Below are positions 10,252-27,246 of a DNA stretch of 64,000 bases, piece by piece. The stretch is from Zhongshania marina. Lineage in GTDB: Bacteria > Pseudomonadota > Gammaproteobacteria > Pseudomonadales > Spongiibacteraceae. Location: positions 1 through 64,000 of the forward strand of contig NZ_PQGG01000042.1 in NCBI RefSeq assembly GCF_002915595.1, in the 5' to 3' direction. The position numbers and the translations under genes were made by a program. Positions within the stretch are counted from its first letter, which is position 1. Each line of letters begins with the position of its first letter. The notes under the pieces were generated by a model that saw nothing but the letters and a program-made list of their open reading frames with translations, ran no database searches and was not told where the DNA came from.

Positions 10252-11568
10252 ATGCAAGTAAAAAAATATCAAGCCGCTGACACTCAGCAAGCGATGCGTC
10301 TGGTACGCGCATCACACGGCCCTGACGCGGTTATATTAGATTGTCGCAGTATTGCGGGTGGTGTCGAAGTTGTTGTCAGCCTTGAAGAACTGATTGAAAG
10401 CAGCGCGCCGGCCACAGCGAATTTGGCATCTGCGCGTGATACCCGAAGTGAGCGCGAGCCAACGGCCTTAGATGCCTTGTTTAATCGTCGTAAAAAAGCA
10501 GAGGAGCAATCGGCACCTGCTGCTAAGGAGGCAGTTGCGCCTAATCGCGAAACCGCCGCCGGGCCGCAGGTTGTTTGGTCGCAGAATGAAGAACTGCTGA
10601 CCATGAAGCAGGAATTGGCATCGATGAAATCCATGTTGATGGATCAGCTTAAAGGTCATAGCTGGCAACATGCCAGCCATCAAACTCCTGAGTACGAAGA
10701 GCTGAATGCATTTTTGTCGGCAATGGATATTGATCCGGCCTTAGGCAAGCAGCTCCGCGCGGAGATTCCCGCCGACGAGACCGTGAGCTTGCAGCGTGAA
10801 ATGCTAAAAATGCTATTGATTAAAAAATTGTCGGTAGCGACCCCGCCAAGCTCCGGTGCAATTTGCTTAGTTGGTCCGCAGGGCGCGGGTAAAACCACAA
10901 CAATCGCCAAGATTGCCGCGCAATATGTGCTGACTCACGGCCGCAGTGACATCGCGATTCTAACAACCGATACCGCCAGAGTCGGCGCGCAAGAGCAGCT
11001 GCGGGCGTATGGTCGTATATTACAGGTGCCGGTGCATGTTGCCGCAGACGAAGAAGAGGCGGTGAAAACCTATCGCCTACTTCGCAAAAAGAATTTGGTC
11101 CTGATCGACACGGCGGGGATTTCCTTCCGCGACAAGCAGGGCATTAGTGAACTTCATAGTCTGGTGTCGGCCATGCAAGACGTGCAGGTGTTTTTAACTC
11201 TGCCAGCGGATACCGAAAACTATGTGCAAAGCGAAATCATCGACGCTTATTCTGCATTTAATGCCAGAGGCGCAGTGCTAACTCGCATTGACGAGGCCAT
11301 GCGTATCGGCGGCGCAATGTCGAATTTAATTCAGCATCGCCTACCTTTGGTGTGGTGTGCTAATGGCCCGCGAGTGCCGCAAAACTTGTCCGCTGCGGAT
11401 GCCTCAAAATTAGTGAATATGGCTGTTCGCATGACCAAAGCCTTTGAGCATAAGCGCCAGCCGATTACGGTGCCGAAGGAGCCTGAAAAGCAGGCTGAAT
11501 CTGTACCGGCGGAGGTGGCAATGGCTAGGCAAGCTCAGCGTGGTTCGTCGCTAAATGTGCGAGTTTAG
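10252..11568 (+). CDS. flhF: Flagellar placement GTPase FlhF
   Basis: 438 residues from the chosen start, which follows GGAGAAGCT; the alternative GTG 15 bases upstream lacks a binding site. The protein has an N-terminal B domain ('MQVKKYQAADTQQAMRLV'), a variable linker and an SRP-type NG GTPase with P-loop GPQGAGKTTT at residues 208-217 and DTARVGAQEQL and DTAG motifs further on. FlhF recruits the first flagellar components to the cell pole in polar flagellates, with FlhG as its regulator. Its presence suggests polar flagella. Confidence 0.94.
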   Translation: MQVKKYQAADTQQAMRLVRASHGPDAVILDCRSIAGGVEVVVSLEELIESSAPATANLASARDTRSEREPTALDALFNRRKKAEEQSAPAAKEAVAPNRETAAGPQVVWSQNEELLTMKQELASMKSMLMDQLKGHSWQHASHQTPEYEELNAFLSAMDIDPALGKQLRAEIPADETVSLQREMLKMLLIKKLSVATPPSSGAICLVGPQGAGKTTTIAKIAAQYVLTHGRSDIAILTTDTARVGAQEQLRAYGRILQVPVHVAADEEEAVKTYRLLRKKNLVLIDTAGISFRDKQGISELHSLVSAMQDVQVFLTLPADTENYVQSEIIDAYSAFNARGAVLTRIDEAMRIGGAMSNLIQHRLPLVWCANGPRVPQNLSAADASKLVNMAVRMTKAFEHKRQPITVPKEPEKQAESVPAEVAMARQAQRGSSLNVRV

Positions 11569-11708
11569 CGCAATATAATCAAGATGTTAGTGATAGTGCG
11601 TAGATCAATTTTAGGGTAAAGGTCATAAGATAAAAGAACGATAGTTTAAGAATCCGCTGCCATCGATTTTGGGGTGGTGAAAAATGTATCGGGAGAGTGA
11701 TAAAAACA

Positions 11709-12536
11709 ATGAGCGCAGTAAAAGTAATAGCTGTCAGCAGTGGTAAAGGTGGCGTTGGTAAAACCAATGTGTCGGTTAATTTGGCGTGTCAATTAGCGCG
11801 ACGCGGAAACCGGGTCTTGCTGATGGATGCTGACCTTGGTCTTGCCAACGTCGACATTATGTTGGGGCTCAAGCCAAAATGGAATTTGTCTCATGTACTT
11901 GATGGCAAGTGCTCAATTGAGGATGTTTTGGTTCCTGGTCCCGATGGTATTTCTATTATTCCCGCTGCTTCTGGCATCAAGAAAATGGCGGAATTGGGCA
12001 ATGATCAGCACGCGGCGATTGTGCGCTCTTTAAGTTCCTTGAGCGGCGATTACGATGTGATGATTGTCGATACTGCCGCGGGTATCTCAGACAGTGTTAT
12101 TACCTTTAGTCGCGCTAGCCAATATGTATTGGTGGTGGTCACCGACGAACTCACGTCGATGGCGGATGCCTACGCACTTATTAAAGTTATGAACCGCGAC
12201 GCGGGTATAAAGCGCTTTAAAGTGCTGCGCAATATGGTGAATAGCCATGATCAGGCGCGGGATGGTTTCGAGCGTTTAAATGAAGTGGCGCAGCGTTTCT
12301 TGGATGTCACGCTAGAATACGCCGGCTTTATTCCCCGTGATCCGTATTTAATTAAAGCCGACACCCGCCAAAAAGCCGTTAGTGATTTGTACCCTGGTGC
12401 AGAGTCCTCAATGGCGTTTAGACGTTTGGCAGAAGTCGTTGATAAATGGGACATGCCGACAGGTCCCAGTGGCAATATTGAATTCTTTGTAGACCGCATG
12501 TTTAGCGGTGACGCGGTAGCAGGAGCGGCGATGTGA
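11709..12536 (+). CDS. flhG: Flagellar number regulator FlhG (FleN), MinD-like ATPase
   Basis: 275 residues of the ParA/MinD class with a deviant Walker A motif (SSGKGGVGKTNVSVNLA, about residues 8-24), the switch region 'LMDADLGLANVDIMLGL' and 'DTAAGISDSV'. FlhG/FleN limits flagellar number by acting on FlhF and on the FleQ activator. The start at 11709 was preferred because an upstream GTG lies inside the GGGAGAG binding site. It overlaps fliA by four bases. Confidence 0.94.
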   Translation: MSAVKVIAVSSGKGGVGKTNVSVNLACQLARRGNRVLLMDADLGLANVDIMLGLKPKWNLSHVLDGKCSIEDVLVPGPDGISIIPAASGIKKMAELGNDQHAAIVRSLSSLSGDYDVMIVDTAAGISDSVITFSRASQYVLVVVTDELTSMADAYALIKVMNRDAGIKRFKVLRNMVNSHDQARDGFERLNEVAQRFLDVTLEYAGFIPRDPYLIKADTRQKAVSDLYPGAESSMAFRRLAEVVDKWDMPTGPSGNIEFFVDRMFSGDAVAGAAM

Positions 12537-13264
12537 ACGGGCATTCCGCTTACCTAAATGTGCAGTACGGCAGCCGCGAAGAGCTGGTGAGTCGTCACGC
12601 GCCTTTGGTTAAGCGAATTGCCTATCACTTGGTGAGTCGCTTACCGGCGAGTGTCGAAGTCGATGATCTTATTCAAGCGGGCATGATTGGCCTGCTCGAG
12701 GCTGGTAGCAATTACCAAATGGATAAGGGTGCCAGTTTCGAAACCTTTGCCAGTATTCGTATTCGCGGCGCAATGATAGATCAAATGCGTCATAGCGGCT
12801 GGGCGCCGCGCTCTGTTACCCGCCAGCTGCGTGAAATGAGCGAAGCGGTGCGCAAGGTGGAAAGTCGATTGGGTCGAGAAGCTACGGCGAATGATATAGC
12901 CGAAGAAATGGATATTTCACTAGACGAATATCACGATATTTTGCGGGATACCAGTTCAGTTCGTCTTTTTAGTCTCGACCAAATGAGCGAAGGTGAAAAC
13001 GATACCATTGATATTGGTGGGGGAGATGATCGCTATGCTCCCCTAGAGAACGTTTTAGAAGACGGTTTTCAGCACGCTCTAGCCAGCCAAATTAATGAGC
13101 TGCCAGAACGCGAAAAGTTGGTGATGGCCCTGTATTACGAAAACGGCTTGAACCTCAAAGAGATTGGCGAAGTTATGGAAGTGAGTGAGTCGCGGGTCTG
13201 CCAAATTCACAGCCAAGCCATCGTTCGCCTTAAGGGGCGGCTCAGTGAATGGACAGCGGCGTAG
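12533..13264 (+). CDS. fliA: Flagellar sigma factor FliA (sigma-28)
   Basis: 243 residues with sigma-70 regions 2 ('HAPLVKRIAYHLVSRLPASV', 'DDLIQAGMIGLLEA', 'GASFETFASIRIRGAMIDQMR'), 3 and 4 ('LPEREKLVMALYYENGLNLKEIG'). It begins with GTG within the flhG stop (GTGA), and no anti-sigma factor FlgM gene is nearby. FliA directs transcription of late flagellar and chemotaxis genes. In Pseudomonas cheY and cheZ follow at once; here the next gene is a DUF2802 protein. Confidence 0.95.
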   Translation: MNGHSAYLNVQYGSREELVSRHAPLVKRIAYHLVSRLPASVEVDDLIQAGMIGLLEAGSNYQMDKGASFETFASIRIRGAMIDQMRHSGWAPRSVTRQLREMSEAVRKVESRLGREATANDIAEEMDISLDEYHDILRDTSSVRLFSLDQMSEGENDTIDIGGGDDRYAPLENVLEDGFQHALASQINELPEREKLVMALYYENGLNLKEIGEVMEVSESRVCQIHSQAIVRLKGRLSEWTAA

Positions 13265-14839: not shown

Positions 14840-14920
14840 CTGGCTACGGCCTCAAAACGTCAGTTCGATTAACGATAATTCCCGCCATAAAGCAATTCTG
14901 CTATAGTCTCGCTCGAAAAA

Positions 14921-15011
14921 CCTAAGGGGTGGCTGCGGCCTGAGATGCGATTGTGTAAAGCAATCTGCAAACCCTTGAACCTGATCCGGTTAATACCGGC
15001 GTAGGAATAGG
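14921..15011 (+). promoter_or_regulatory. TPP (thiamine pyrophosphate) riboswitch
   Basis: The THI element is well preserved: GGGGTG at 14926, CTGAGAT around 14939, ACCCTTGAACCTGATC around 14971-14986 and GTTAATACCGGCGTAGGAA ending near 15007. P1 can be closed by CCTA (14921-14924) and TAGG (15008-15011). It lies 67 bases ahead of the TonB receptor gene and would switch the thiamine-uptake operon off when TPP is plentiful. Confidence 0.95.
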
Positions 15012-15077
15012 TGTAAGGTCGAAAATCCTCTTCTAGCGCGTACCGGGTCTCTTAGTTTTAATACTTATGAGAGAGCC

Positions 15078-17225
15078 ATGAAACCTTTATTTCCCTCTAA
15101 ATCCCTAGTTTATACCGCTGGTGTCGCCTGCCTGTTGGCGGCAAATCCAAGTTTTGCCGACGCATCGGGCAAGCCTGCAAATATGGAAGAAGTTATTGTT
15201 AGCAGCCAGTTTCGCGACACGAGTCTATTAGATCTTGCCAGCACCGTCAGCGTATTCGACGAGGCGAGCATCAGTGCTCGCGGCGCTAGCAATATCGAGC
15301 AGTTGCTAAATCTTGCGCCCAATGTGAATTTTGCAGCGGGTGCGTCTCGCGGTCGCTTTTTTCAGATTCGCGGCATTGGTGAGCGCAGCCAGTTTATTGA
15401 CCCCGTCAGTCCGTCTGTGGGTTTGATTATTGATGGTATCGATTTTAGCGGTCTGGGTTTAGCGGCAAGTACCTTAGATATCGCTCAGGTTGAAGTGCTG
15501 CGCGGGCCGCAGGGTACTGTTTACGGTGCCAATGCCTTGGCGGGGCTAATTAGCATGACTAGCCAAGCGTCAAGCGCAGAGCAGATGGTAAAAATCTCCG
15601 CCGAAGTGGCCGAGTACAATAGCCAAACATTGGCTGTGGTTGCGAGTGGGCCTTTGAGTGAGCGGGTGGGCTATCGACTTGCAGTGCAAAATCAACAGTC
15701 CGATGGCTATGTCGAAAATACTTTTTTAAACCGCGATGATACCAATAATATCGACGAATCGGTGCTGCGTGGCAAACTTAGTTTTGCGGCGAGTGACGAC
15801 TTGCAGTTGGATTTCAATCTTTTGTACCTAGATGCCGACAATGGCTACGACGCTTTTTCTTTAGATAATAATCGTAAAACACAGTCAGACCAGCCAGGCA
15901 CAGATACGCAGGAAACCCTAGCGGGCTCGATTATTTCGCGTTGGACGGCTAGCTCATTATTCAGTCTTGAATCGACGCTGAGCTTCGCAAATTCGGAAAC
16001 CGAATACGGCTATGATGAAGACTGGGTCTATATCGGATTTCACCCCGACGAATACAGCTCCGTCGATAATTATCAGCGTGACAAAGAGAATATAAGTGTT
16101 GATGTTCGGTTTATTTCCAGTGATGAATCTCGCATTTTTAATGACAGCACTAGCTGGGTAGGCGGCGTTTATTTGCGCACAGAAGACGAAGATCTTGAAC
16201 GTAACGCGAGTTTTAGCAGTCAGTTTGAAACCGACAATACGGCAGTTTACGGCCAGCTACAAACGAGCTTAAGCGATACTTTGACCTTGGTGTCTGGACT
16301 GCGATTTGAACAGCGCAAAGCGGACTATCAAGATTCGCTGCAAGTTCGTTCAGATAATGATGAAGACCTGTGGGGCGGTAATTTGACCCTGGAATACCGT
16401 TACGCCGATAGCAAACTGGTTTACGCGACAATATCGCGGGGATATAAGGCAGGTGGCGTGAACGGGCGGATCATCTCTGCCTCTGCGACGAATACTTCTA
16501 TAGATAGTGATCTTTACCAGTTTGATACCGAACATATGATCAACTACGAACTGGGTATTAAAGGCGCGTGGTTAGACAATCGTCTGCAAGCGCAGCTTGC
16601 CGCCTTTTTCCAAGATCGCAGTGATGTGCAAGCCAAGCAATCTATTTTTGATCCCAATAATTTTTCCTTTGATGATTTCCTAGCCAATGCGGCAGGGGGT
16701 AAGACCAGCGGTCTAGAGTTGGAACTTAATTATTTGGCTAGTGACAGTCTGCGGTTTTTTGCTGCAGCGGGTTTACTCAACGCTGAATTCGACGAGTTTG
16801 TGAGCCAGTCGCATGTCGACGCAAAGGACGACGGTAATGGTGTGGCATTGGCGCCGGTAAATCTTGATGGCAGAGAGCTCGCCCACGCACCCAAGTATCA
16901 ATTCTTTGTGGGCACTGAATTAAATATTCTGAGTAACCTTGTTTTGCGTGTAGAGCTTGAGGGCAAAGATGAGTTTTATTTCTCGAATAGCCACAATGAA
17001 AAATCAAGTAGCTATGAGCTGATTAATGCGCGCTTGACCTACTATGCCAGCAACTGGGATGTGTCGGTATGGGGGCGCAATTTAGCAGACGAAGACTACG
17101 AAACCAGAGGGTTTTACTTTAGCAACGCCTTCGGTAACAACCCCGCCAATGGCTATGCGCCAGAGGCCTATTACCAGTTTGGCGAGCCGCGCATTGTAGG
17201 TGTTTCAGCTAACTACACCTTTTGA
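15078..17225 (+). CDS. TonB-dependent outer-membrane receptor, probably for thiamine
   Basis: 715 residues with a signal peptide (cleavage near NPSFA-DA), a plug domain ('MEEVIVSSQF' TonB-box region, 'QIRGIGER', 'VEVLRGPQGTVYGANALAGLI') and a 22-strand-type beta barrel ending in an aromatic residue (F). The TPP riboswitch upstream and the thiamine-binding, permease and kinase genes downstream indicate that the substrate is thiamine or a phosphorylated or precursor form. TonB-energised thiamine receptors under THI control have been predicted in Shewanella and related marine bacteria. Four-base overlap with the next open frame does not affect this gene. Confidence 0.88.
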   Translation: MKPLFPSKSLVYTAGVACLLAANPSFADASGKPANMEEVIVSSQFRDTSLLDLASTVSVFDEASISARGASNIEQLLNLAPNVNFAAGASRGRFFQIRGIGERSQFIDPVSPSVGLIIDGIDFSGLGLAASTLDIAQVEVLRGPQGTVYGANALAGLISMTSQASSAEQMVKISAEVAEYNSQTLAVVASGPLSERVGYRLAVQNQQSDGYVENTFLNRDDTNNIDESVLRGKLSFAASDDLQLDFNLLYLDADNGYDAFSLDNNRKTQSDQPGTDTQETLAGSIISRWTASSLFSLESTLSFANSETEYGYDEDWVYIGFHPDEYSSVDNYQRDKENISVDVRFISSDESRIFNDSTSWVGGVYLRTEDEDLERNASFSSQFETDNTAVYGQLQTSLSDTLTLVSGLRFEQRKADYQDSLQVRSDNDEDLWGGNLTLEYRYADSKLVYATISRGYKAGGVNGRIISASATNTSIDSDLYQFDTEHMINYELGIKGAWLDNRLQAQLAAFFQDRSDVQAKQSIFDPNNFSFDDFLANAAGGKTSGLELELNYLASDSLRFFAAAGLLNAEFDEFVSQSHVDAKDDGNGVALAPVNLDGRELAHAPKYQFFVGTELNILSNLVLRVELEGKDEFYFSNSHNEKSSSYELINARLTYYASNWDVSVWGRNLADEDYETRGFYFSNAFGNNPANGYAPEAYYQFGEPRIVGVSANYTF

Positions 17226-17287
17226 TGGGTTGGGCGGCTACTGCCGCCCTAATTCAAGCACTTAGAAAAATAGGTCGAGGAAAATGT

Positions 17288-17551
17288 ATGAAGCTTTCGG
17301 TTGAAATCAGTATGTATCCCCTAAAAGATGAGTATATTCTCGCTATTCAACATTTTATTGATCGCTTGAATACTCACCCAGACTTACAAGTAATTACCAA
17401 TACTATGAGCACTCAAATCTTTGGGGATTACGACATAGTGATGGATGTACTAAAAAAAGAAATGCGCTTATCTTACGAGCAGTTTGGTCGCGCCATTTTT
17501 ATCTGCAAGTTTATTGATGGCGATTTAAGCCCTGTGGCTGACAATGTTTAG
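17288..17551 (+). CDS. YkoF-like thiamine/HMP-binding protein
   Basis: 87 residues from the start chosen because GAGG stands eight bases upstream; longer in-frame versions lack a binding site. The sequence 'MKLSVEISMYPL', 'FIDRLNTHP', 'ITNTMSTQIFGDYD' and 'FICKFIDGD' matches the small thiamine-binding family related to YkoF, with a ferredoxin-like fold. A soluble protein without signal peptide; it could bind thiamine or its pyrimidine moiety in the cytoplasm. It overlaps the permease gene by eight bases. Confidence 0.78.
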   Translation: MKLSVEISMYPLKDEYILAIQHFIDRLNTHPDLQVITNTMSTQIFGDYDIVMDVLKKEMRLSYEQFGRAIFICKFIDGDLSPVADNV

Positions 17552-18164
17552 CGAGGAAGTTTTCAACGCGATTACAGCTGCGTTTGCGGCGATGTCGCTG
17601 TGGGAAGTGGCTGCGGTTGTACTCGCCTTGGCGTATTTGATTTTCGCCATGAAAGAAAATAGCCTGTGCTGGTATGCCGCATTTGTGAGCACATCAATTT
17701 ACGTTTTTTTATTTTGGGACGTGAGTTTATTAATGGAATCTGCGCTGCAGATTTTTTATCTTGTTATGGCTGTCTACGGTTGGTGGCAGTGGCGTAAACA
17801 GGGTGATACTCAAAGTGAACTGCGCATTCACCGCTGGGCTTTGCGAACACACATCATAGTTGCGGTTGTGGTGGGTTTGCTAACACTGAGTTTCGGTTAT
17901 GTGCTATCCACTTCGACCCACGCGGAACTACCATATTTAGATTCCTTTACTACTTGGGGTGCCGTTGTCACAACCTATATGGTGACCCGTAAAGTACTAG
18001 AAAATTGGATTTACTGGATCGTCATTGACGGCGCCTCAGTCTACTTATACATAGACCGAGAGTTGTATTTAACTGCGCTATTATTTGTGCTTTATGTAGT
18101 GTTGGTCGTGATTGGCTTTTTTCAATGGAATGCCATTTATAAACGCGAACAGCTCGAATCCTAA
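17544..18164 (+). CDS. pnuT: PnuC-family thiamine transporter (PnuT type)
   Basis: 206 residues with seven or so membrane helices and PnuC family features: 'WEVAAVVLALAYLIFAMKEN', 'ESALQIFYLVMAVYGWWQWR' with the W-x-x-W pair, and 'ENWIYWIVIDGASVYLYI'. PnuC-type carriers move vitamins by facilitated diffusion and depend on intracellular phosphorylation for trapping. With a TPP riboswitch upstream and a kinase gene two bases downstream, thiamine is the likely cargo, not nicotinamide riboside. Confidence 0.85.
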   Translation: MFSEEVFNAITAAFAAMSLWEVAAVVLALAYLIFAMKENSLCWYAAFVSTSIYVFLFWDVSLLMESALQIFYLVMAVYGWWQWRKQGDTQSELRIHRWALRTHIIVAVVVGLLTLSFGYVLSTSTHAELPYLDSFTTWGAVVTTYMVTRKVLENWIYWIVIDGASVYLYIDRELYLTALLFVLYVVLVVIGFFQWNAIYKREQLES

Positions 18165-18166
18165 GT

Positions 18167-19030
18167 ATGAACACATCAGCCGACATTATCCCAGTAGACT
18201 GGCCGAAGTGGAGTAAAACTAAACCCAAGCTATTAAAGCCATTGCTCGGCGGTTTAACAAATAAGAGCTATTTAATATCTGCCGACAACACCGACATGGT
18301 ATTGCGGAAAAACTCCGCTATAAGTGCAGCATTAAATCTTGATCGCGTTACCGAGGCGCGGGTGTTGGTGCTTGCCGACGATGCGGGTTTGTGCGCCCCT
18401 CTTATTCACTACGACGGCGACTATCAATACGTGGTGAGTCGCTATGTAGAGGGTAAGCACTGGCGTGCAGACGAGCAGGGAATTCGCTCATTGGCAACGC
18501 TATTGCAGCGTATTCACCGCCTTCCCGCCATTGATAAATATTTAACTATTGCCGATAAAGCCGAGCGCTATTGGCAGGCAATAGCTAAAAACGCACCGCA
18601 TTTGGCAGAATTGAAAAAGGTGGCAAATAAAATGATGCCACTTATCGAAAGTACAAGGCGTTCAGGCTCTGGCGCCTGTCTTTGCCATAATGACCTGCTG
18701 AGAGAGAATTTAATTAGTACGGAAGAGGGACGCTTATACGCAATTGATTGGGAATACGCCACAATGGGCGACCTCTTCTATGAACTTGCAGTAATTGTTG
18801 AAGGCCAGGCACTGAATCAGTCGCAGCAAGAATTGCTATTAAGCGAATATTTTGCGAGATCCGTAAGTGAAAACGACAGGCAAAACCTTAAAAATTGGCG
18901 CTTAATTTACTGCTATTTAACTGTGTTGTGGTACGCCGTGCAGTGGTCTAGCGGCGTGATGGCAACACCAGAAACAAGCCACCATATTGCTCGGCAGATA
19001 CAGGACTTAAACGCTAAGCTTGGTGATTAG
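18167..19030 (+). CDS. thiK: Thiamine kinase-like (choline/aminoglycoside kinase fold)
   Basis: 287 residues of the APH/choline kinase superfamily: nucleotide-binding segment 'LLGGLTNKSYLI', Brenner motif HNDLLREN (H174, N175, D176, N181) and the metal-binding DWEYA (D194). It immediately follows the PnuT-type permease and closes the riboswitch-led operon, so phosphorylation of imported thiamine is the best-supported role. Choline kinase or another small-alcohol kinase cannot be excluded from sequence alone. Confidence 0.8.
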   Translation: MNTSADIIPVDWPKWSKTKPKLLKPLLGGLTNKSYLISADNTDMVLRKNSAISAALNLDRVTEARVLVLADDAGLCAPLIHYDGDYQYVVSRYVEGKHWRADEQGIRSLATLLQRIHRLPAIDKYLTIADKAERYWQAIAKNAPHLAELKKVANKMMPLIESTRRSGSGACLCHNDLLRENLISTEEGRLYAIDWEYATMGDLFYELAVIVEGQALNQSQQELLLSEYFARSVSENDRQNLKNWRLIYCYLTVLWYAVQWSSGVMATPETSHHIARQIQDLNAKLGD

Positions 19031-19116: not shown

Positions 19117-20310
19117 TTATGTAAGTGACATAAGCGCGGAGACTAAAAGCTCGTTGTCGTAATAGGGCGCGCTTTGCTTGCTAACTAGCCGCGTATCGAT
19201 TAGCTCAATATTCAGTGATGCCAATACCTCGGACGAAAGTTTAGATGGGTAAATTCCATTTCGGCTATCTAGTAGTACAAAGTTTAATAGTTGCTGGTTT
19301 GTCGTACTATCGTCACAGTCTGCGTGAAGTTGGGCAAGTAGACGTTCAACTGAGCTAGTTAAATCCATATTGAATTGTTCAGGATCACTGCCTAAATTAG
19401 GGATATATACTTTTGGACAGTCGTTTTCTGCTATCGCTTTCCCAACGCCTTCTGGGATCAAATTCGCAAGTAGTGATGAGTAAAAGCTGCCTGGGGGATA
19501 GCAAATGAGTTCTGCCGATTCGATTAATTTGCGATTTTTTTTGCGAATGGAAATGGATTTAATGGATTTCATTTCTGGATCTTGAGATAGAAATATATGC
19601 TCAATGGCTGAATCTAGCGGTGCTACTTCCTTGCCAGTAATTAAATGCTGACCAATGACTTCACTGCCGTCCTCCAAGTCGGCGCCAAGATGAAGATCAT
19701 CATTCACTATAGTTCTTACGATGCCTTGTACATTCACAAGCTTGGAAAATAGGAAAATAATAGGATCTAGGTGGCGGTGATTATTTAAGTATCCACCGGC
19801 AAGAATAAGATTACCGATGCTTGCGCCTCTTAGATCGAAATTTTCTGGCATGGCGGCCAGAAAGAATCCTAATTGATTGCAGATTAACTTGCGCATGGGG
19901 TTTGCAATGTCACTGATGAGTGGCGATTTACCCCGAATCAGGTCATTCAACTGCATAAGCAAAAGTTGCTGCGATGCAGCTTTGTCTAAACGGTGCTCAA
20001 ACAGAGCGACAATTTCTGGATGCCCGAGTACCGTTTCATCGGCTAGTGCCATAAGACGACTGCGTAAGTCACCAATTGATGGCATGTCAAAAGCCTTGCG
20101 CAATTCTGCGGAACTGCCGCCAGAATCAAAAGGTGTTAATAGGTGGATAGTGTTGTGGCTGTAGTTTTTAAGGGTTTTGCAAAGGTTGTTTAAGGCCGAG
20201 CCACCGCTAAAAAATAGTATGCGAGGGCCAAGCTCGGGTATTTTTCGGTAGCGGCTAATACGTAATGGGTCGGGAATACTGAGGCTGCGGGTAACTCGAA
20301 CATTCGTCAT
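19117..20310 (-). CDS. GAK system CofD-like protein
   Basis: 397 residues related to CofD/YvcK: an N-terminal Rossmann loop 'ILFFSGGSALNNLCKTL' and 'HLLTPFDSGGSSAELRKAF', then 'GASIGNLILAGGYL' and a C-terminal region with the 'CYPPGSFYSSLLANLIPEGVGKAI' element. YvcK-like proteins bind UDP-sugars, while CofD transfers phospholactate to F420 precursors; which activity applies here is unknown. It is divergent from six co-directed genes (kinase, ATP-grasp, HprK-related, phosphatases, amphi-Trp), the combination named the GAK system in NCBI protein families, which has no assigned function. Confidence 0.82.
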   Translation of the reverse strand: MTNVRVTRSLSIPDPLRISRYRKIPELGPRILFFSGGSALNNLCKTLKNYSHNTIHLLTPFDSGGSSAELRKAFDMPSIGDLRSRLMALADETVLGHPEIVALFEHRLDKAASQQLLLMQLNDLIRGKSPLISDIANPMRKLICNQLGFFLAAMPENFDLRGASIGNLILAGGYLNNHRHLDPIIFLFSKLVNVQGIVRTIVNDDLHLGADLEDGSEVIGQHLITGKEVAPLDSAIEHIFLSQDPEMKSIKSISIRKKNRKLIESAELICYPPGSFYSSLLANLIPEGVGKAIAENDCPKVYIPNLGSDPEQFNMDLTSSVERLLAQLHADCDDSTTNQQLLNFVLLDSRNGIYPSKLSSEVLASLNIELIDTRLVSKQSAPYYDNELLVSALMSLT

Positions 20311-20344
20311 AAATTAAATCAATTTCTTAAGGCTAATCTCGGTT

Positions 20345-20379
20345 TTGTCATATTTCTGTAACAGGCAATGACAAATAAT
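20345..20379 (+). promoter_or_regulatory. Pho-box-like promoter element in the divergent GAK region
   Basis: TTGTCATATTTCTGTAAC (20345-20362) agrees with the PhoB consensus CTGTCATAWAWCTGTCAY at 15 of 18 positions. AATAAT at 20374-20379 lies 11 bases beyond it, the distance expected for a PhoB-dependent -10. The element is also almost symmetric: TTGTCAT at the left, CTGTAACAG in the centre and ATGACAA (20368-20374) at the right, so it might serve both divergent genes or be a dyad for another regulator. Confidence 0.55.
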
Positions 20380-20400
20380 GGTTCAGAATTAAGCCATGAT

Positions 20401-20423
20401 ACGTCGCTTATGTGACGTTTTTT
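20401..20423 (+). terminator. Terminator-like hairpin in the leader of the GAK operon
   Basis: ACGTCGC pairs with GTGACGT (one G-U) around the loop TTAT and is followed directly by five further T residues. It lies between the predicted Pho-dependent start and the first kinase gene, where an ordinary terminator would be unexpected; it may be an attenuator or a residual operator. The stem is short. Confidence 0.4.
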
Positions 20424-20480
20424 CGTCATTTAACTTCTACTCTGCCCTGACTGCAGTGTGAAAATTGTCCTGTCGTTCCC

Positions 20481-20495
20481 ATTGCCGATGGCAAT
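20481..20495 (+). promoter_or_regulatory. Short palindrome just upstream of the PhoU-kinase gene
   Basis: ATTGCC-GAT-GGCAAT is a perfect 6-bp inverted repeat with a 3-base centre, ending 16 bases before the start codon. In RNA it would form a small hairpin next to the binding site (AAGAAGAT); in DNA it could be an operator half pair. Confidence 0.35.
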
Positions 20496-20511
20496 ATGAA
20501 GAAGATCAGCC

Positions 20512-22155
20512 ATGAAAATCCCTAAAAACATCCGCGACAATTTGCGATTTTTGTGCATTGAGGTTGATTCCTTATTGGAGAGCTTAGAGGCCTGCTTTCT
20601 TGAGGATGTCGCGGTGCAAGGTCGACGGATACTCGATCGAGGCGGCTATGCCTACAATTTAAAAGTACGAATTCACAACGCCTCTCTCCAGCAGTTGTCA
20701 TTTCTTAAAACAGGCGATGACAATACTATGAGCCTACGCGCTGCGGAGTTCATTGCTACCGACCTAGAGCGTATTGCTGAGCTTTGCCGCGAGAGTGTTA
20801 AGCAAATTAGCTATCTAGATGAGCGCAGTGAGATATTTCCGGAGCGCTATCCGCCGATGCTAACCTTGATACGTGAAGGTATTGCGATGATTGGCGTGGC
20901 AGTTAATGACAGCGATAGCCGTCAAGCCTTGAAAATCGCTCAGCTAGAGTCGCAGATAGACCGCAGCTATCATCGCTTATATAAGCGCTATATCACTGCT
21001 TTAAAGATCAATGGCAAATATACCGAAAGCTTTGTGACGGCGTTGTTTCTTGCGTATAACGTTGAGCAGATGGGTGATGCCTTACGCAATATTAGTGAAA
21101 CAATTATTTCTGCAAATATCGGGCAGCCCGTAAATTTTGAACGCTACCACGCCCTGCAAGAGTCGGTAGAGCACTTGGAGGCCGAGGCCCTGCGTGGTCA
21201 GTTAACGGTACTCCCTATTGCTGAAACCCGATCAGGTAGCGCTATATCCGGTGTTCACGCTGGGTCGGGAAATGAGAGGGAACCAATTGCCATTTTTAAG
21301 GAGGGCCAGAAAAGCAAGCTTAAGGAAGAGCGGCAAGGAGTGAAGAGCTGGCACGAAATCTATCCAGGTTTGGCGCCGCGCATACTGAGCTATAAAAAGC
21401 GTGGCCAGTCGGCTGCATTGCTAATAGAACATTTGCCTGGCCTTACATTTGAGCAAATTCTGCTAAGTGGAAACCGTAACCAGCTTGCGATTAGTCTTGA
21501 ACGGCTATGCGAAACGCTGCAGGCAGTGTGGACACAGACTCGCAATGAAGAGCCGGTGGCTGCGGGATTTATTACTCAAATCGGCAAACGCCTGCCAGAA
21601 ATTTATAGAATTCATCCTGAGTTTCGTCTGGGTAAGGCTAATATTTGTAGTCTTAAAATTCCTGCTTTTGCAGATGTTTTGAAAAAGGCAGAGGTTTATG
21701 AAAGGGATTTTCTTGCACCTTTCTCAGTTTATATTCACGGCGATTTTAACGTCGACAATATTATTTACGACCCAGCGGAGAATCGAATTAATTTTATTGA
21801 TCTGCATCGCTCTAGGTATATGGATTATGTGCAGGATGTGTCGGTATTTATGGTGTCGAATTATCGTTTACAGATACTCGATCACCAAATTCGACAGCGC
21901 ATTATGGCGGTAGCAAGAGACTTTTGTGAATCTACCCGTCGCTTTGCTGCTGAGCAGGGGGACGATAGTTTTGAGATTCGTTTAGCACTGGGGCTGGCGC
22001 GTTCTTTTATTACTTCAAGCCGTTTTACTCTTGATAAGTCGCAGGCGCGGCGAATGTTTTTACGCTCCTGCTACTTGATTGAAAAAGTCCTCGCTACGCC
22101 AGCTAGTGAGGTGCCGTCGTTCAAAGTGCCGATCAAGGAGATCTTCGTTGTCTAA
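20512..22155 (+). CDS. PhoU-like/APH-type kinase fusion protein of the GAK system
   Basis: 547 residues with two parts. Residues 1 to about 225 are all-helical and PhoU-like, including the duplicated pattern ending 'NVEQMGDALRNISETII'. After a linker, residues about 275-540 form an aminoglycoside phosphotransferase-type kinase with HGDFNVDN (H409, D411, N416) and the metal-binding D430 in 'FIDLHRS'. PhoU domains usually sense or relay phosphate status, so this looks like a phosphate-linked kinase of unknown substrate. It heads a tight operon: the next three genes overlap each other by 4-13 bases. Confidence 0.8.
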   Translation: MKIPKNIRDNLRFLCIEVDSLLESLEACFLEDVAVQGRRILDRGGYAYNLKVRIHNASLQQLSFLKTGDDNTMSLRAAEFIATDLERIAELCRESVKQISYLDERSEIFPERYPPMLTLIREGIAMIGVAVNDSDSRQALKIAQLESQIDRSYHRLYKRYITALKINGKYTESFVTALFLAYNVEQMGDALRNISETIISANIGQPVNFERYHALQESVEHLEAEALRGQLTVLPIAETRSGSAISGVHAGSGNEREPIAIFKEGQKSKLKEERQGVKSWHEIYPGLAPRILSYKKRGQSAALLIEHLPGLTFEQILLSGNRNQLAISLERLCETLQAVWTQTRNEEPVAAGFITQIGKRLPEIYRIHPEFRLGKANICSLKIPAFADVLKKAEVYERDFLAPFSVYIHGDFNVDNIIYDPAENRINFIDLHRSRYMDYVQDVSVFMVSNYRLQILDHQIRQRIMAVARDFCESTRRFAAEQGDDSFEIRLALGLARSFITSSRFTLDKSQARRMFLRSCYLIEKVLATPASEVPSFKVPIKEIFVV

Positions 22156-23038
22156 ATTAAAAATCGCTGTGGTAGGAATACCAGGAAAATGGTCTACCGA
22201 AGTGTTCGCAGACGCACTTGAATCTAGAACGGGATTTCGCCTAGTGATTGATATGGCAGAAGTCTGTTTAGATTTAAGCCTTGGATTACTGATGTACCGC
22301 GGTATTAATCTGTGTGATCTTGATGGTATTGTGGTGAAGAAAATAAGTGCCGAATACAGTCCAGATACCCTTAACCGCCTTGAAATGCTGCGCTTTGTTG
22401 AGGCCCGTGGTGTGCGTGTGTTTAGCTCTGCGACAAGTATGTTGGGGTTGATTAATCGACTTAGCTGCACGGTCACTTTGCGGCAACACGGAATTCCCAT
22501 GCCAGATACGGTGGTAACGGAAGATATAGACGAAGCGATGGCTGCAGCGCGCGAGTTTTCAGCGGTGGTATGCAAACCCCTTTTTTCTACCAAGGCGCGG
22601 GGAATGTGTATTATTAATGCTCAGCAAGAAGACGTAGCACTTGCTGCGGAGTTGCAAGAGTTTCAATTAGCTAATCCTGTTATGTATCTGCAGCGCAAGA
22701 TCGAGCTCCCTGGGCGGGATTTAGGCTTGGTATTTTTGGGTGGCAAGTATTTAGGGAGTTACGCTCGGGTTTCTCAAAGTGATAGTTGGAATACAACGAT
22801 TAATAGCGGCGGCCGCTACGCGCTAGCAGATCCACCGGCTGAGACTATTGAAATTGCACAGCGCGCACAGGCGGCATTTAATTTAGATTTTACCACCGTC
22901 GATGTGGCCGAAACCGATATTGGCCCAGTCGTGTTTGAAGTGTCAGCTTTTGGCGGATTTCGCGGTGCGCTCGAAGGGGCGGGAATCGACGCAGCAGCGC
23001 TTTACAGTGAGTATGTACTGGAAAATATAAGACCATGA
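22148..23038 (+). CDS. GAK system ATP-grasp enzyme
   Basis: 296 residues resembling RimK/glutathione-synthetase-like ATP-grasp ligases: an N-terminal 'KIAVVGIPGKWSTEV' domain, the ATP-binding 'AVVCKPLFSTKARGM' region and the 'YLQRKIELPGRDLGLVFL' and 'VDVAETDIGPVVFEV' segments with acidic metal ligands. Such enzymes join a carboxylate to an amine or thiol through an acyl phosphate. The TTG start at 22148 is preferred because AAGGAG ends seven bases before it; it overlaps the end of the upstream gene. Substrates are unknown. Confidence 0.82.
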   Translation: MSKLKIAVVGIPGKWSTEVFADALESRTGFRLVIDMAEVCLDLSLGLLMYRGINLCDLDGIVVKKISAEYSPDTLNRLEMLRFVEARGVRVFSSATSMLGLINRLSCTVTLRQHGIPMPDTVVTEDIDEAMAAAREFSAVVCKPLFSTKARGMCIINAQQEDVALAAELQEFQLANPVMYLQRKIELPGRDLGLVFLGGKYLGSYARVSQSDSWNTTINSGGRYALADPPAETIEIAQRAQAAFNLDFTTVDVAETDIGPVVFEVSAFGGFRGALEGAGIDAAALYSEYVLENIRP

Positions 23039-24156
23039 TGAAAAGCAGTAGAGAGCTTTACCAGCATTTTTGCGACGGCGTGGTATTTGAGCCGCGTGAA
23101 ATTCAATTGGAATGGGCTGGTATAAGGGTGGCTCTGCGCAGTAATTCTTTAGAAATGCTTGATGAGCTCAGTAAGTATTTTTTGCACTGTATATTACCAA
23201 GTGATGATTTAGTTGCTACTGAAGGGACTATTCGCATTGCCGCTATTGAGCAGGAAGAACCTCTAGTAGAAATGAATTTTCAAGATTGGCGCAGAGAGGG
23301 TGGCAAGACAGGGCGCAAGGATAGCTATGCCGACTTGAGTGATGGCCGACTATTGCGAAAAGTGCGCACGGGTATGGTTTTTCTGCAAAATAGTAAGCTG
23401 CTATTGGCGCTTGGCCCCTGTGTGGCTAATAGCAATCAAGTGGTTAATTTTATTATTTCTCAAGTGATGAACCGCCTTCAGCATTCCAATTACCTAATTT
23501 GTCACGCAGCTGCTGTGCAGGTAAATGGGCTTGGGCTGGCCTTAGCGGGTTTTTCTGGCGGCGGAAAGTCTACCTTGATGTTAAAGCTAATGGAAAATAG
23601 CGATAGTAAATTTATTAGCAATGACCGCCTTTTCCTGCGCTACAGCGACGACGGTGTGCATGCAGTTGGCGTGCCGAAATTGCCTCGTGTTAATCCGGGT
23701 ACCTTGTTAAACAACGCTCGACTTCGAGTCTTGATGGATGAGGGTGATCAGTTATATTTTGATAATCTTCCTTTTTCAGAACTTTGGAATATTGAGAAGA
23801 AATACGATGTGCCAATAGAGACATTGTATGGCATGGGTAGAATTTTGGCCTCGTCGGAATTGAGCGCAGTCATTATTTTGAATTGGCGGCACGACAGTGA
23901 CGAGCCAACGATGATACAGGCAGTGGATATTGCTGCCCGCCGGGAATTACTGGCGGCAGTAAAAAAGGCGCCGGGGCCTTTTTATCAAGACGCCAACGGC
24001 AAATTTTTGCAGGATGACAATGGGGTAGATGAGGAGCCCTATCTCTCCTTGCTTCAACTATCCCAAGTGTGGGAGTTGAGTGGCAAGGTAGACATTGAGT
24101 GCGGCGTAAATTTAATTATGAATCAACTAGCCCTAGAGCCGCTATGCCAAGACTAA
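23035..24156 (+). CDS. HprK-related kinase B (GAK system)
   Basis: 373 residues. A P-loop GFSGGGKST occupies residues 172-180, preceded by 'YLICHAAAVQVNGLGLALA', the layout of the HPr kinase/phosphorylase catalytic domain, and 'FISNDRLFLRY' follows as in its relatives. The HPr-binding loop typical of true HprK is not evident, so the phosphoacceptor is probably another protein or small molecule of this cluster. It overlaps the ATP-grasp gene (ATGATGA) and the phosphatase gene. Confidence 0.85.
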   Translation: MMKSSRELYQHFCDGVVFEPREIQLEWAGIRVALRSNSLEMLDELSKYFLHCILPSDDLVATEGTIRIAAIEQEEPLVEMNFQDWRREGGKTGRKDSYADLSDGRLLRKVRTGMVFLQNSKLLLALGPCVANSNQVVNFIISQVMNRLQHSNYLICHAAAVQVNGLGLALAGFSGGGKSTLMLKLMENSDSKFISNDRLFLRYSDDGVHAVGVPKLPRVNPGTLLNNARLRVLMDEGDQLYFDNLPFSELWNIEKKYDVPIETLYGMGRILASSELSAVIILNWRHDSDEPTMIQAVDIAARRELLAAVKKAPGPFYQDANGKFLQDDNGVDEEPYLSLLQLSQVWELSGKVDIECGVNLIMNQLALEPLCQD

Positions 24157-24842
24157 TTGCTGCGCTTGTTCGTCATGGCGAATATCATCAGCGCGCACAC
24201 ATTCCAAGTGCACTTCAACCTTATCCATTAAACGCCAGGGGTTTTGTCCAAACAGACGAGGCCGCAGCAGCGCTAATTGCTGAGGCTGCAGAAAATCAGT
24301 GGGATATTTGCAATCGCATTGATAGCTCGACCTTGTTGCGGGCATGGCAAACTGCAGAGCGCTATTGCTTGGCTATTCAAGGCCATCTCGACATGCCAGC
24401 GCAACTGGCAAGCTTTGACGCCCTGTGCGAGCGCAGTGTGGGCAGCGCAGCTAATTTGACTTTGGCGGAGATCCAAAAAATTATTAGCGATGACCCGCGC
24501 TTTGCCGATCTACCCGAAGACTGGAAGTCTAATAGTCATTTCTGTCTGCCGTTAACGGGTGCGGAATCCTTGATGATGGCTGGCCAGCGCGTCGCGGAGC
24601 ATATAAGCATGAGTATGCAAGATTGTATTAACGCAGAGCGCGATACTCTAAAGGTATTTGTGGGCCACGGTGCGGCGTTTCGCCATGCCGCGCATATACT
24701 CGGTGTACTGAATTTTGACGATATTGCAAAGTTCAGCATGTACCACGCAAAACCTATTTATATAGAATTAATTGATGACAAGTGGGTGCATATTGGCGGC
24801 GATTGGAAGCTGCGTGATGGGGCGCGCACTATGCTTGATTGA
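24144..24842 (+). CDS. Histidine phosphatase family protein (GAK cluster)
   Basis: 232 residues. The start at 24144 puts the catalytic RHG (R10, H11, G12) right at the N-terminus as in SixA and phosphoglycerate-mutase relatives; a second histidine is in 'VFVGHGAAFRHA'. These enzymes remove phosphate through a phosphohistidine intermediate, and SixA-like members act on phosphoproteins. Its first 13 bases overlap the HprK-related kinase gene, hinting that the two act in opposite directions on one substrate. Confidence 0.82.
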   Translation: MPRLIAALVRHGEYHQRAHIPSALQPYPLNARGFVQTDEAAAALIAEAAENQWDICNRIDSSTLLRAWQTAERYCLAIQGHLDMPAQLASFDALCERSVGSAANLTLAEIQKIISDDPRFADLPEDWKSNSHFCLPLTGAESLMMAGQRVAEHISMSMQDCINAERDTLKVFVGHGAAFRHAAHILGVLNFDDIAKFSMYHAKPIYIELIDDKWVHIGGDWKLRDGARTMLD

Positions 24843-24942
24843 GTGTTTGCCGCTAAATCAAAGAGCAATTAATTCGCCGTATTCATTTAAATGTCATAGA
24901 GCTGAAATATAACTGTAGGCTCATGATGATGGAAAAAACACG

Positions 24943-26268
24943 ATGGCAGTAGGTGTTGCACACAGGCTTCAATTTAACTCTCAGGCTGATAGCGGTTCAG
25001 AGAAGCTAGCTTCTGGCTATGAACCTTGGGAATTGGGTGGTCGAAGTGATTCATTGAAGCTGGCAAAGCGGCGAACGCTATTACGAGAGAGTTTAGAAAA
25101 ATCTGTTGCAGAGCACCCTTGGGCTTGGCCGAAGCGAAGCATTATTTTTGTGTCTGATCCGCATGCAGATACCGAGGCTTTTGAGGAGTCTTTAGTGGTA
25201 TCCGGTGGCGTTAAATTACATCGTCATCGTGGATTTGTGCTAACGGCGGCAGGGCGCAAGGCTAGCTTCGTTATTGGTGGCGACTGCTTGGATAAGGGGC
25301 CAAGTAATTTAGCCTTATTGCGCAGCGTGAAAGCGCTGATGGATTGCGGTGCCGATGTGAAATTATTGGCGGGAAATCACGATGTTCGCTTTCTCATTGG
25401 TTTGCGCGCAATGAGTTTGCCCGCGCATTGTGATACCGAGCATATGTTTGCACGGATGTCGCCGAAGGTGGTTCCGCTTTTACATGAAATATACCAGCAC
25501 TATTTGCAAGGCAGTAAGCGCGCTCTTAGGGGAGTGCCCTCTCGTGAGGAGTGTCAAAAGCGCCTATTACCGGCGGCGGATTGGTTTGAGCGCTTTGAGA
25601 TGTCGGCGCGGAGCCGTATGCGCGACGAGACCTTGCAGCGTGAATTGACGCGAATGCGGAAAAAAATATCGGGGTTTGAATCTGCATTTTCTGACGTGGG
25701 TATGGATTGGCGTGAGGTTTACGCGACCGCAAAGCTATGCCAAAAGCTATTTCTAAAGCGTGGCGGTGAGTTTTTCTGGTTTTTTAATAAAATGCAGCTG
25801 GCCTACCGCAGTGGCTCATTTTTATTTATTCACGCCGGCTTGGACGACCAAGCGATAGAGATAATAAAGCGTGATGGCGTGAAGTCGCTCAATAAGCTGT
25901 ATAAGCAGCAGCTACGGCATAATTTATTCGATTTTTACTATGGCTCCGTCGCGAATACCATGCGGACAAAGTATCGCGATGTTGATATGCCGCTTTCAAA
26001 CGGGGCGGTGGCCGAGCTTTGTCGCCAAGGCATTCATGCGGTTGTTCACGGGCATCGTAATCGCTTGGATGGTCAGCGACTAATGCTGCGACAGGGCCTA
26101 TTACATATAGAGGGCGATATTACTATGGATCGTAATTCCCGCCTTAAAGAAGGCCTGACTGGAATTGGGATTGGAGCCACTATTATCGAGCCGACGGGAA
26201 GAGTGTTGGGTGTTAGCAATGACTATCCTGCCATCAAGGAATTTTCTCCTGCACGTTATTTGCAATAA
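24943..26268 (+). CDS. Calcineurin-like metallophosphoesterase (GAK cluster)
   Basis: 441 residues with the full PPP-type metal site: D72-x-H74 ('SDPHADTEAF'), G-G-D-C-L-D-K-G with D114, G144-N-H-D and the late 'VVHGHRN'. Long insertions between the motifs (residues about 165-290) distinguish it from common protein phosphatases. The active site is complete, so hydrolysis of a phosphoester is expected; the substrate is unknown. It follows the histidine phosphatase after 100 bases and precedes the amphi-Trp gene by 38. Confidence 0.85.
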   Translation: MAVGVAHRLQFNSQADSGSEKLASGYEPWELGGRSDSLKLAKRRTLLRESLEKSVAEHPWAWPKRSIIFVSDPHADTEAFEESLVVSGGVKLHRHRGFVLTAAGRKASFVIGGDCLDKGPSNLALLRSVKALMDCGADVKLLAGNHDVRFLIGLRAMSLPAHCDTEHMFARMSPKVVPLLHEIYQHYLQGSKRALRGVPSREECQKRLLPAADWFERFEMSARSRMRDETLQRELTRMRKKISGFESAFSDVGMDWREVYATAKLCQKLFLKRGGEFFWFFNKMQLAYRSGSFLFIHAGLDDQAIEIIKRDGVKSLNKLYKQQLRHNLFDFYYGSVANTMRTKYRDVDMPLSNGAVAELCRQGIHAVVHGHRNRLDGQRLMLRQGLLHIEGDITMDRNSRLKEGLTGIGIGATIIEPTGRVLGVSNDYPAIKEFSPARYLQ

Positions 26269-26306
26269 CTATCTGCGGCTTGTAAGCGAACAAGGAAAGA
26301 GCTGAA

Positions 26307-26576
26307 ATGCGTCAAACTAAAAGCAGTTTTCGTCACGAGTCTTTACAGGACGGAAAATCTATTCAGGAATTTTTAAAGGCAATAACAAAGGGCCTTGCCA
26401 AGGGCCGACTTCAATTTAGTGATGAAGACGGCGAGCTTATTATGTCGCCCGAAGGCTTGCTAAATATGAAGCTAACCGCGATTCAGGATGAATCACGCCA
26501 CACAATTGATTTGCGGATTAGTTGGCAGGTGGACGATGGCGAGCTTGAGAAAAAAACACTTACTATCTCAAATTGA
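26307..26576 (+). CDS. Amphi-Trp domain protein (GAK cluster)
   Basis: 89 residues: 'FRHESLQDGKSIQEFLKAITKGLAKGRLQF', an amphipathic helix, then beta strands ending 'IDLRISWQVDDGE' with the tryptophan that gives the family its name. Amphi-Trp proteins are tiny partners of the GAK system and of HprK-like kinases in several phyla; a role as carrier or phosphoacceptor has been suggested by the context but is not proven. It closes the operon. Confidence 0.75.
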   Translation: MRQTKSSFRHESLQDGKSIQEFLKAITKGLAKGRLQFSDEDGELIMSPEGLLNMKLTAIQDESRHTIDLRISWQVDDGELEKKTLTISN

Positions 26577-26769
26577 GCAATTTCCCTGGCGCGTCAGCAA
26601 TAGGATGGCCGTAGCTCCTTGGTAGGCGAGTGCAGGCTCGGCTCAGAAAATGGCAATTTTGCGCCAATCGCGGCTGTGATACAGTATCCTCAAGTTATAT
26701 GGTAGGCGGAAATTTCACCTTACGTGGTTTCACGCCAATACTCCTTACAAACCCTTGGCAGGTGTTCCG

Positions 26770-27246
26770 ATGGTCATATTTAAAAGATGTCTACTGCTCT
26801 GTGTATTACTAAGCACAGGTTTTGCTTTTGCTGAGTCAGCACCGGGTGTAACGGCGCTAGAGGTGTTTAAAAGCCCCTCTTGCGGCTGCTGTGGTAAGTG
26901 GGTGACGCATCTTGAGGAAAGCGGTTTTACCGCGACGGTTCAGCATCCGTCAAATTTGAATGAAACCAAGGCAGCATTAGGTATTCCACCCAATTTAAGC
27001 TCATGCCATACCGGCGTCAGTGCCGAAGGTTATTTCTTTGAAGGTCATGTTCCCGCTAGTGTGGTCGCAAAATTTTTGGCCAATCCGCCTGTTGACGCAG
27101 CAGGTTTAGCGGTACCCGGTATGCCCGCCGGTAGTCCCGGTATGGAAATGGGTAGCCAATTCACGCCCTATAATGTGATGCTTGTGAAGAAGGATGGTTC
27201 CAGTGAAATCTTTGCAAGCATGATGTCGTACAGCGATCAGTTCTAG
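26770..27246 (+). CDS. DUF411 secreted metal-binding protein
   Basis: 158 residues from the chosen start (an earlier in-frame start at 26755 would place charged-poor residues before the signal peptide). Signal peptide to about residue 21 (FAFA-ES), then 'VFKSPSCGCCGKWV' with a CxCC cluster, 'LSSCHTGV' and 'GHVPA', the standard DUF411 pattern. Family members are found with copper and silver resistance genes and are thought to bind such ions in the periplasm. Here it is isolated between the GAK cluster and rluA. Confidence 0.8.
   Translation: MVIFKRCLLLCVLLSTGFAFAESAPGVTALEVFKSPSCGCCGKWVTHLEESGFTATVQHPSNLNETKAALGIPPNLSSCHTGVSAEGYFFEGHVPASVVAKFLANPPVDAAGLAVPGMPAGSPGMEMGSQFTPYNVMLVKKDGSSEIFASMMSYSDQF

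Follow-up and report, generated by a model that had tools for sequence, protein, structure and literature searches.

The GAK system is a group of protein families that is catalogued in NCBIfam and, as far as our searches show, is apparently unstudied: a literature search of limited coverage returned no paper naming the system, its TIGR models or its amphi-Trp protein, nor any that brought together four of five functional terms. Here we analyse one example, a run of seven genes in Zhongshania marina (assembly GCF_002915595.1) that lies within positions 1 to 64,000 of contig NZ_PQGG01000042.1, forward strand, a 64,000-nucleotide stretch that we call the window throughout. Computation reveals that the GAK genes are a coherent, conserved and tightly packed module, and that a PhoB-type direct repeat stands upstream of the operon, both in the window and at loci of several other genera. 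On the basis of this repeat we predict, with good confidence, that the window operon is a member of the Pho regulon. The system being catalogued, its existence is not new; what we add is its likely placement in the response to phosphate limitation, its Nudix partners, the altered active site of its ATP-grasp protein and a rearranged version in another phylum.

A conserved gene module

A preliminary description of this DNA had recognised the GAK families in seven adjacent genes, and both points are borne out: all seven are present, two of them with refined starts, and four of the proteins exceed the cut-offs of the NCBIfam GAK models in a hidden Markov model (HMM) search. On the minus strand, divergent from the operon, is the gene for the CofD-like, YvcK-like protein (19117-20310; TIGR04357, 531.5 bits against a cut-off of 340). 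The operon itself, on the plus strand, opens with a PhoU domain fused to an APH-type kinase domain (20512-22155; PF01895 at 43.1 bits and PF01636 at 34.3 bits, both above cut-off) and continues with the ATP-grasp gene (about 22148-23038; TIGR04356, 446 bits against 300), whose TTG start at 22148 overlaps the preceding stop and has a plausible ribosome-binding sequence before it. There follow the gene for HprK-related kinase B, or HprK-B (23035-24156; TIGR04355, 322.4 bits against 200), a branch 1 histidine phosphatase (about 24144-24842; His_Phos_1, PF00300, 50.5 bits) whose start was refined to 24144 from a mechanical open reading frame (ORF) start at 24099, a PPP/ApaH-type metallophosphoesterase (24943-26268; Metallophos, PF00149, 24.2 bits against 21.5) and the amphi-Trp protein, which has a GAK-specific N-terminal FxHxS motif (26307-26576; TIGR04354, 66.4 bits against 31).

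Co-occurrence across genomes, which had been proposed as a check, goes far beyond chance. Among 398 genomes from the window's phylum, the models for the GAK ATP-grasp, HprK-B and amphi-Trp were exceeded in 13, 14 and 21 genomes, respectively, and the 13 with the ATP-grasp all have HprK-B (hypergeometric 2e-23) and in 12 cases amphi-Trp (1e-16). The one ATP-grasp genome without amphi-Trp has its locus on a 9.8-kb contig that ends inside the metallophosphoesterase gene, HprK-B sits at a contig edge in the fourteenth HprK-B genome, and amphi-Trp occurs without GAK in 8 of its 21 genomes. The gene neighbourhoods say the same. We gathered 94 loci, namely the window, 13 from other genomes (12 GAK-positive, one partial) and the best 80 of at least 493 relatives; removal of two duplicates left 92 unique loci, and 59 of these extend 4.5 kb or more upstream and 6.5 kb or more downstream, the other 33 being dropped for short flanks. 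Each of the PhoU-kinase, the ATP-grasp, HprK-B and amphi-Trp is found in 59/59 of the well-flanked loci, the metallophosphoesterase in 58, the histidine phosphatase in 56 and CofD in 27. Over all 92 loci the counts are 92 for the ATP-grasp, 87 for the PhoU-kinase, 85 for HprK-B, 83 for the histidine phosphatase, 79 for the metallophosphoesterase, 71 for amphi-Trp and 39 for CofD. The main gene pairs are separated by median gaps of -8 to +3 bases (61 loci, before removal of duplicates), in which overlaps are overstated because ORF starts were taken as the first start codon after a stop, and no ORF of the 94 loci fuses two of the families.

The window had also been called a complete cluster, and this has to be withdrawn, because comparable loci carry two further genes, a Nudix gene (34/59) and a SixA-Nudix fusion (35/59), neither of which was found in a search that covered the window rather than the rest of the genome. 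Over all 92 loci these two are seen 48 and 56 times. In the 49 loci (duplicates counted) that have a Nudix gene, it usually lies next to the PhoU-kinase, being -60 to 250 bases from the mechanical start of that gene in 28 and overlapping its over-extended start in 18; two more are 273 and 526 bases away, and one comes after amphi-Trp. The Nudix half of the fusion, known to us from relatives of the window, is closest among solved structures to the human diphosphoinositol polyphosphate phosphohydrolase DIPP1 (1e-13), with a diadenosine tetraphosphate (Ap4A) hydrolase at 1.6e-9.

The module is also found outside the window's phylum. One locus of the Rhodopirellula phylum (L172) has eight genes of GAK families in a rearranged order, and a second (L173) has the same without a histidine-phosphatase match; that mostly the same genes recur reordered suggests that function, rather than inherited order alone, keeps them together. 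HprK-B was not found in the retrieved stretches of two others (L174 and L175), the latter ending 1.2 kb past the ATP-grasp. Distribution is patchy in both phyla (13/398 and 5/294 genomes), and the GAK ATP-grasp is carried by five large plasmids classed as non-mobilizable, out of 72,556 records. Those of Tritonibacter, Qingshengfaniella and Pseudooceanicola all bear the GAK operon, with CofD adjacent in two, and the Pseudooceanicola algae plasmid has a seven-gene order identical to that of the window, annotated under GAK names. A divergent gene splits the operon in three further loci (L063, L066 and L074), and ahead of HprK-B these have an unassigned gene of some 190 codons; in L063 the former belongs to the Exo_endo_phos family and the latter has no Pfam match.

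Elsewhere in the window, a DUF411 protein with a CGCCGKW motif is encoded just 3' of amphi-Trp (26755-27246), and a group II intron match (RF00029, 48.6 bits) lies at the window start (143-212). The region 14915-19030, convergent with GAK, is probably a thiamine salvage operon: a thiamine pyrophosphate (TPP) riboswitch (RF00059, 72.6 bits) heads it, followed by a TonB-dependent receptor-like gene, a small gene and a PnuC/PnuT-like membrane protein (the first and last recognised by eye), and then by a thiamine-kinase-like APH protein that scores under its NCBIfam cut-off. This last gene (18167-19030) was considered as a GAK component and ruled out, since it is convergent and apparently belongs to the thiamine operon under the riboswitch.

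A PhoB-type site and phosphate-related neighbours

Between the CofD and PhoU-kinase genes lies the sequence TTGTCATATTTCTGTAAC (20345-20362, plus strand), which differs at two positions from the PhoB consensus CTGTCATAWAWCTGTMAY as printed in PMC3465305; PMC4415409 gives CTGTCAT as the E. coli core of the site. This is the sole match with three or fewer mismatches in the window, where 0.34 would be expected, and also the sole site of at least 14 bits. The whole genome (4.13 Mb) holds seven sites with two or fewer mismatches, against one for the pattern written backwards. One of them precedes phoB (TIGR02154, 342.5 bits against a cut-off of 296.2), and another, a perfect consensus on the same contig as GAK (G000:C37:99245-99262, L160), is directly upstream of a phosphate-selective porin (PF07396). 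A third precedes the gene after pstS, which would be pstC by position, its partial protein having no NCBIfam match; three of the seven have no clear phosphate gene beside them. The GAK site scores 19.4 bits and the site before pstS 20.7 bits. The phoB gene and the pstS region of this genome thus carry PhoB-type boxes resembling the one before the GAK operon, an arrangement shared with an E. coli-type Pho regulon (phoBR, pst); for GAK the regulation is a prediction from sequence. We know of no GAK gene among the members of the Pho regulon.

The same kind of site recurs upstream of other GAK loci. For this comparison 85 unique loci had enough upstream sequence (7 of the 92 did not), and 244 control regions were drawn with genes within 1.5 kb of a GAK cluster excluded. 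Sites scoring 12 bits or more in the direction of the gene occur in 19/85 GAK loci and 6/244 controls (p 6e-8), and sites of at least 14 bits in 13/85 and 6/244 (p 7e-5); 300 draws of a column-permuted matrix, in which repeats are possible, reached maxima of 11 and 8, respectively. The loci with at least 14 bits are the window, two Zhongshania, Marinobacter, Marinomonas, Marinobacterium, Halomonas, two Thalassospira, two of one further genus and two other lineages. The site on the Pseudooceanicola plasmid reaches 18.9 bits, with Qingshengfaniella falling just under 12 bits at 11.6. Several opposite-strand matches in Thalassospira relatives contain a TATAAT-like stretch and were discounted.

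Genes that flank GAK in some relatives point towards phosphate too. CHAD proteins, described as polyphosphate-binding in PMC6537752, are encoded in the retrieved flanks of 10/94 loci, which belong to Gammaproteobacteria, Alphaproteobacteria and Rhodopirellula. Four of 33 distinct GAK-positive genomes have one no more than 10 kb from GAK (4 of 25 copies, 0.11 expected), these 33 being the 13 from the 398-genome sample and 20 chosen for having no adjacent CofD. In one locus (L040) a Pho-box site stands before the CHAD gene, which heads an apparent operon, and in another (L042) CHAD lies inside the GAK operon with a ParA-like ATPase, which L040 also has, and an AAA_21/RloB pair (11105-12796). A further protein cluster occurs in nine loci, and its one Pfam-checked member is a Na/Pi cotransporter with PhoU. 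Together with the Pho box, the CHAD and Na/Pi-cotransporter genes that some relatives have nearby suggest a module for phosphate limitation, and with the PhoU domain they give substance to an earlier guess of phosphate-storage control, at least as a link to phosphate.

Several observations weigh against this placement. At least one match with three or fewer mismatches arose in 27 of 100 shuffles of the window, so that the window match alone is modest. The weights of our Pho-box matrix were our own estimate, even if its consensus agrees with the one in PMC3465305. Of the 85 loci, 66 lack a site reaching 12 bits in the gene direction, and the opposite direction is enriched too (10/85 against 1/244 at 12 bits, 7 against 1 at 14 bits), so that part of the signal may reflect promoter-like composition; the p-values also overstate independence, since the positive loci are partly related (Zhongshania, the one further genus and Thalassospira). 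The possible -10 element AATAAT, read off the sequence 11 bp after the box (20374-20379, plus strand), is weak because a -10 at that spacing is not enriched over the other loci. No Pho-box site was found at 10 distant CofD genes or at three loci of the Rhodopirellula phylum, where regions were roughly placed, and the Tritonibacter plasmid scores 8.6 bits. As for the neighbours, two of the four CHAD-adjacent genomes belong to one family, the presence of CHAD anywhere in a genome is unlinked to GAK (23/33 against 34/46), a genome search found no CHAD in Z. marina itself, and PPK1 is near-universal (76/80 genomes) without tracking GAK. Finally, what we take to be the metal motif of PhoU is partly kept in the PhoU-kinases, E146 in 35/86 and D150 in 36/86.

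Two other explanations draw on the same observations. The first is that, under phosphate stress, GAK governs how polyphosphate is made, where its granules are placed or how it is mobilised; the CHAD genes, the ParA-like ATPases and the Pho box would all suit this, as would the DIPP-type Nudix, a class listed among the eukaryotic polyphosphatases in PMC6537752. We consider it unlikely, given the lack of CHAD in this genome, the failure of PPK1 to discriminate, the two Nudix genes not found in the window and an ATP-grasp with no evident part in polyphosphate metabolism. The second, that GAK is an anti-phage defence or damage-control (house-cleaning) island, has going for it the Nudix and phosphatase genes, the patchy distribution, the occasional plasmid carriage and the AAA_21/RloB pair, of a type seen in defence loci, beside CHAD in L042; set against the predicted Pho-box control of the operon and a PADLOC scan of the window proteins (not the neighbours at other loci) in which 0/7 matched a model at 1e-5, it strikes us as highly improbable.

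Active sites and partner proteins

The preliminary description held that the catalytic motifs are intact in every enzyme, which holds for the PhoU-kinase and both phosphatases and is not borne out for the ATP-grasp and HprK-B, where residues are altered. The PhoU-kinase conserves HGDFNxDN and IDLHRS and falls under the full-length PhoU equivalog TIGR02135 (44.4 against 130.25 bits). The histidine phosphatase keeps its RHG, ER and GHGAxRH motifs and the metallophosphoesterase the PPP motifs GGDxxDKGP, GNHD, HAG and GH; the best match of the latter in the PDB is ApaH (E 6e-4), and it scores far under the symmetrical Ap4A hydrolase (ApaH) equivalog, at 22.4 against 176 bits.

In the ATP-grasp protein, the nearest relatives are the RimK/MptN alpha-L-glutamate ligases, by both HMM and PDB sequence searches, with RimK the nearest solved structure and MptN the second-best NCBIfam model (143.8 bits, under its cut-off of 350). 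It departs from them at two places. The metal-ligand Asn of the EVN motif, present in 18/18 of the paralogues compared, is Ser in 13/13 GAK proteins and in 95% or more of 89, and STKARGM replaces the S/T-Q-G glycine loop of the paralogues; the metal-binding Asp and Glu are retained. The joining of a carboxylate to an amine, which had been proposed for this enzyme, would be the default of the family to judge from RimK and MptN; with these altered metal and loop residues, the enzyme may or may not follow it.

This kinship also invites the idea that GAK makes an F420-like cofactor, through a CofD-like transfer followed by an MptN/CofF-like ligation, and the CofD fold (PF01933) of the divergently encoded protein would fit. 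This protein, however, matches YvcK models, its best solved relatives are of the YvcK/UPF0052 type (E 2.8e-34), and no F420 CofD model is among its NCBIfam or PDB matches. Nor is CofD a fixed member of the module: a search of the flanks drew a blank in 32/59 loci, and no CofD over cut-off turned up anywhere in 15 of 29 genomes without an adjacent CofD (16/30 with one genome doubled). Pfam searches around 5 of the 10 distant CofD loci gave no consistent partner. As the surplus of phosphatases fits poorly as well, we regard a cofactor of this kind as very unlikely.

HprK-B has the P-loop SGGGKST and an Asn-Asp pair in 22/22 sequences, where HPr kinases have Asp-Asp, and it falls under the HPr-kinase models (PF07475, 22.8 against 33.3 bits; TIGR00679, 24.7 against 240). 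An AlphaFold2 model (predicted local distance difference test score, pLDDT, 93.2) suggests that it shares an overall fold, besides the P-loop, with both HPr kinase/phosphorylase and phosphoenolpyruvate carboxykinase (PEPCK): in Foldseek the best matches are to PEPCK (E 2.9e-8, template modelling score about 0.5, a loose root-mean-square deviation of 7-9) and the next to HprK/P (3.7e-7).

The amphi-Trp protein, which is just under the Pfam PF20068 cut-off (26.6 against 27 bits), carries FxHxS near its N-terminus in 68/71 unique GAK loci and 0/8 standalone relatives, and this confinement to GAK copies suggests a GAK-specific function. Its AlphaFold2 model (pLDDT 77.5) finds nothing in the PDB better than E 1.2, so that the fold gives no functional clue, and Pfam searches around 5 of the 8 standalone genes gave no consistent partner (glycerol-3-phosphate dehydrogenase precedes two of the five). 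L172 and L173 have a second, divergent amphi-Trp gene beside the GAK-type copy.

Such a protein could be the substrate of its neighbours, in a protein-modification circuit where HprK-B phosphorylates amphi-Trp, the phosphatases reverse this and the RimK-like ATP-grasp adds amino acids. The presence of amphi-Trp in every well-flanked locus, its private FxHxS motif, the place of RimK among the ATP-grasp relatives and the predicted HprK/PEPCK class of HprK-B all speak for such a circuit. The conserved serine speaks against it: three loci that retain HprK-B (L035, L036 and L172) have Ala in place of Ser12, and L174 and L175, whose retrieved stretches show no HprK-B, still have the Ser. Phosphorylation of this serine by HprK-B is thus not supported, an argument that covers Ser12 alone and not the other residues of the protein. 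The last residues of amphi-Trp, which would be the target of a RimK-like enzyme, also vary among loci, and PEPCK, the best structural match of HprK-B, acts on small molecules. We therefore view such a circuit as rather unlikely overall.

A possible role in phosphate economy

Our preferred reading, to which we give an even chance, is that GAK is under phosphate-limitation control and works as outlined here; that it makes a metabolite for phosphate economy or signalling we also put at about even. Low phosphate would lead PhoB to activate the GAK operon. Within the fusion, the PhoU part would sense phosphate status and gate the attached APH-type kinase, which would phosphorylate a small molecule, and the ATP-grasp protein, RimK/MptN-like with an altered active site, may then elaborate the phosphorylated compound together with HprK-B. 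Reversal by hydrolysis would fall to the histidine phosphatase and the ApaH-type phosphoesterase, joined by the Nudix enzymes where a fuller version has them. The product would thus be a phosphorylated metabolite under regulation that serves phosphate economy or signalling; amphi-Trp would probably bind it, and the YvcK-like CofD would be an optional ligand-binding partner. To name any particular substrate would be a guess, and a poor bet.

The likeness of the Nudix half to DIPP1 raises the thought that bacteria have in GAK an equivalent of the inositol-pyrophosphate system of eukaryotes. In such a scheme a soluble messenger, pyrophosphorylated and belonging to a new chemical class, would be made by the kinases and the ATP-grasp and broken down by histidine phosphatases and DIPP-like Nudix enzymes, and phosphate status would be read by amphi-Trp and the PhoU domain. 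We judge this quite unlikely. A non-inositol core is the more likely, because a myo-inositol-1-phosphate synthase scores over cut-off in 0/33 GAK-positive genomes (one has a weak, stop-containing match).

This multi-enzyme module is spread over marine Proteobacteria and some planctomycetes, and its predicted placement in the phosphate-limitation response indicates a condition under which to seek the GAK product. If it is true that GAK makes a metabolite reporting on phosphate status, then bacterial phosphate signalling would have an extra layer, besides PhoBR and polyphosphate.

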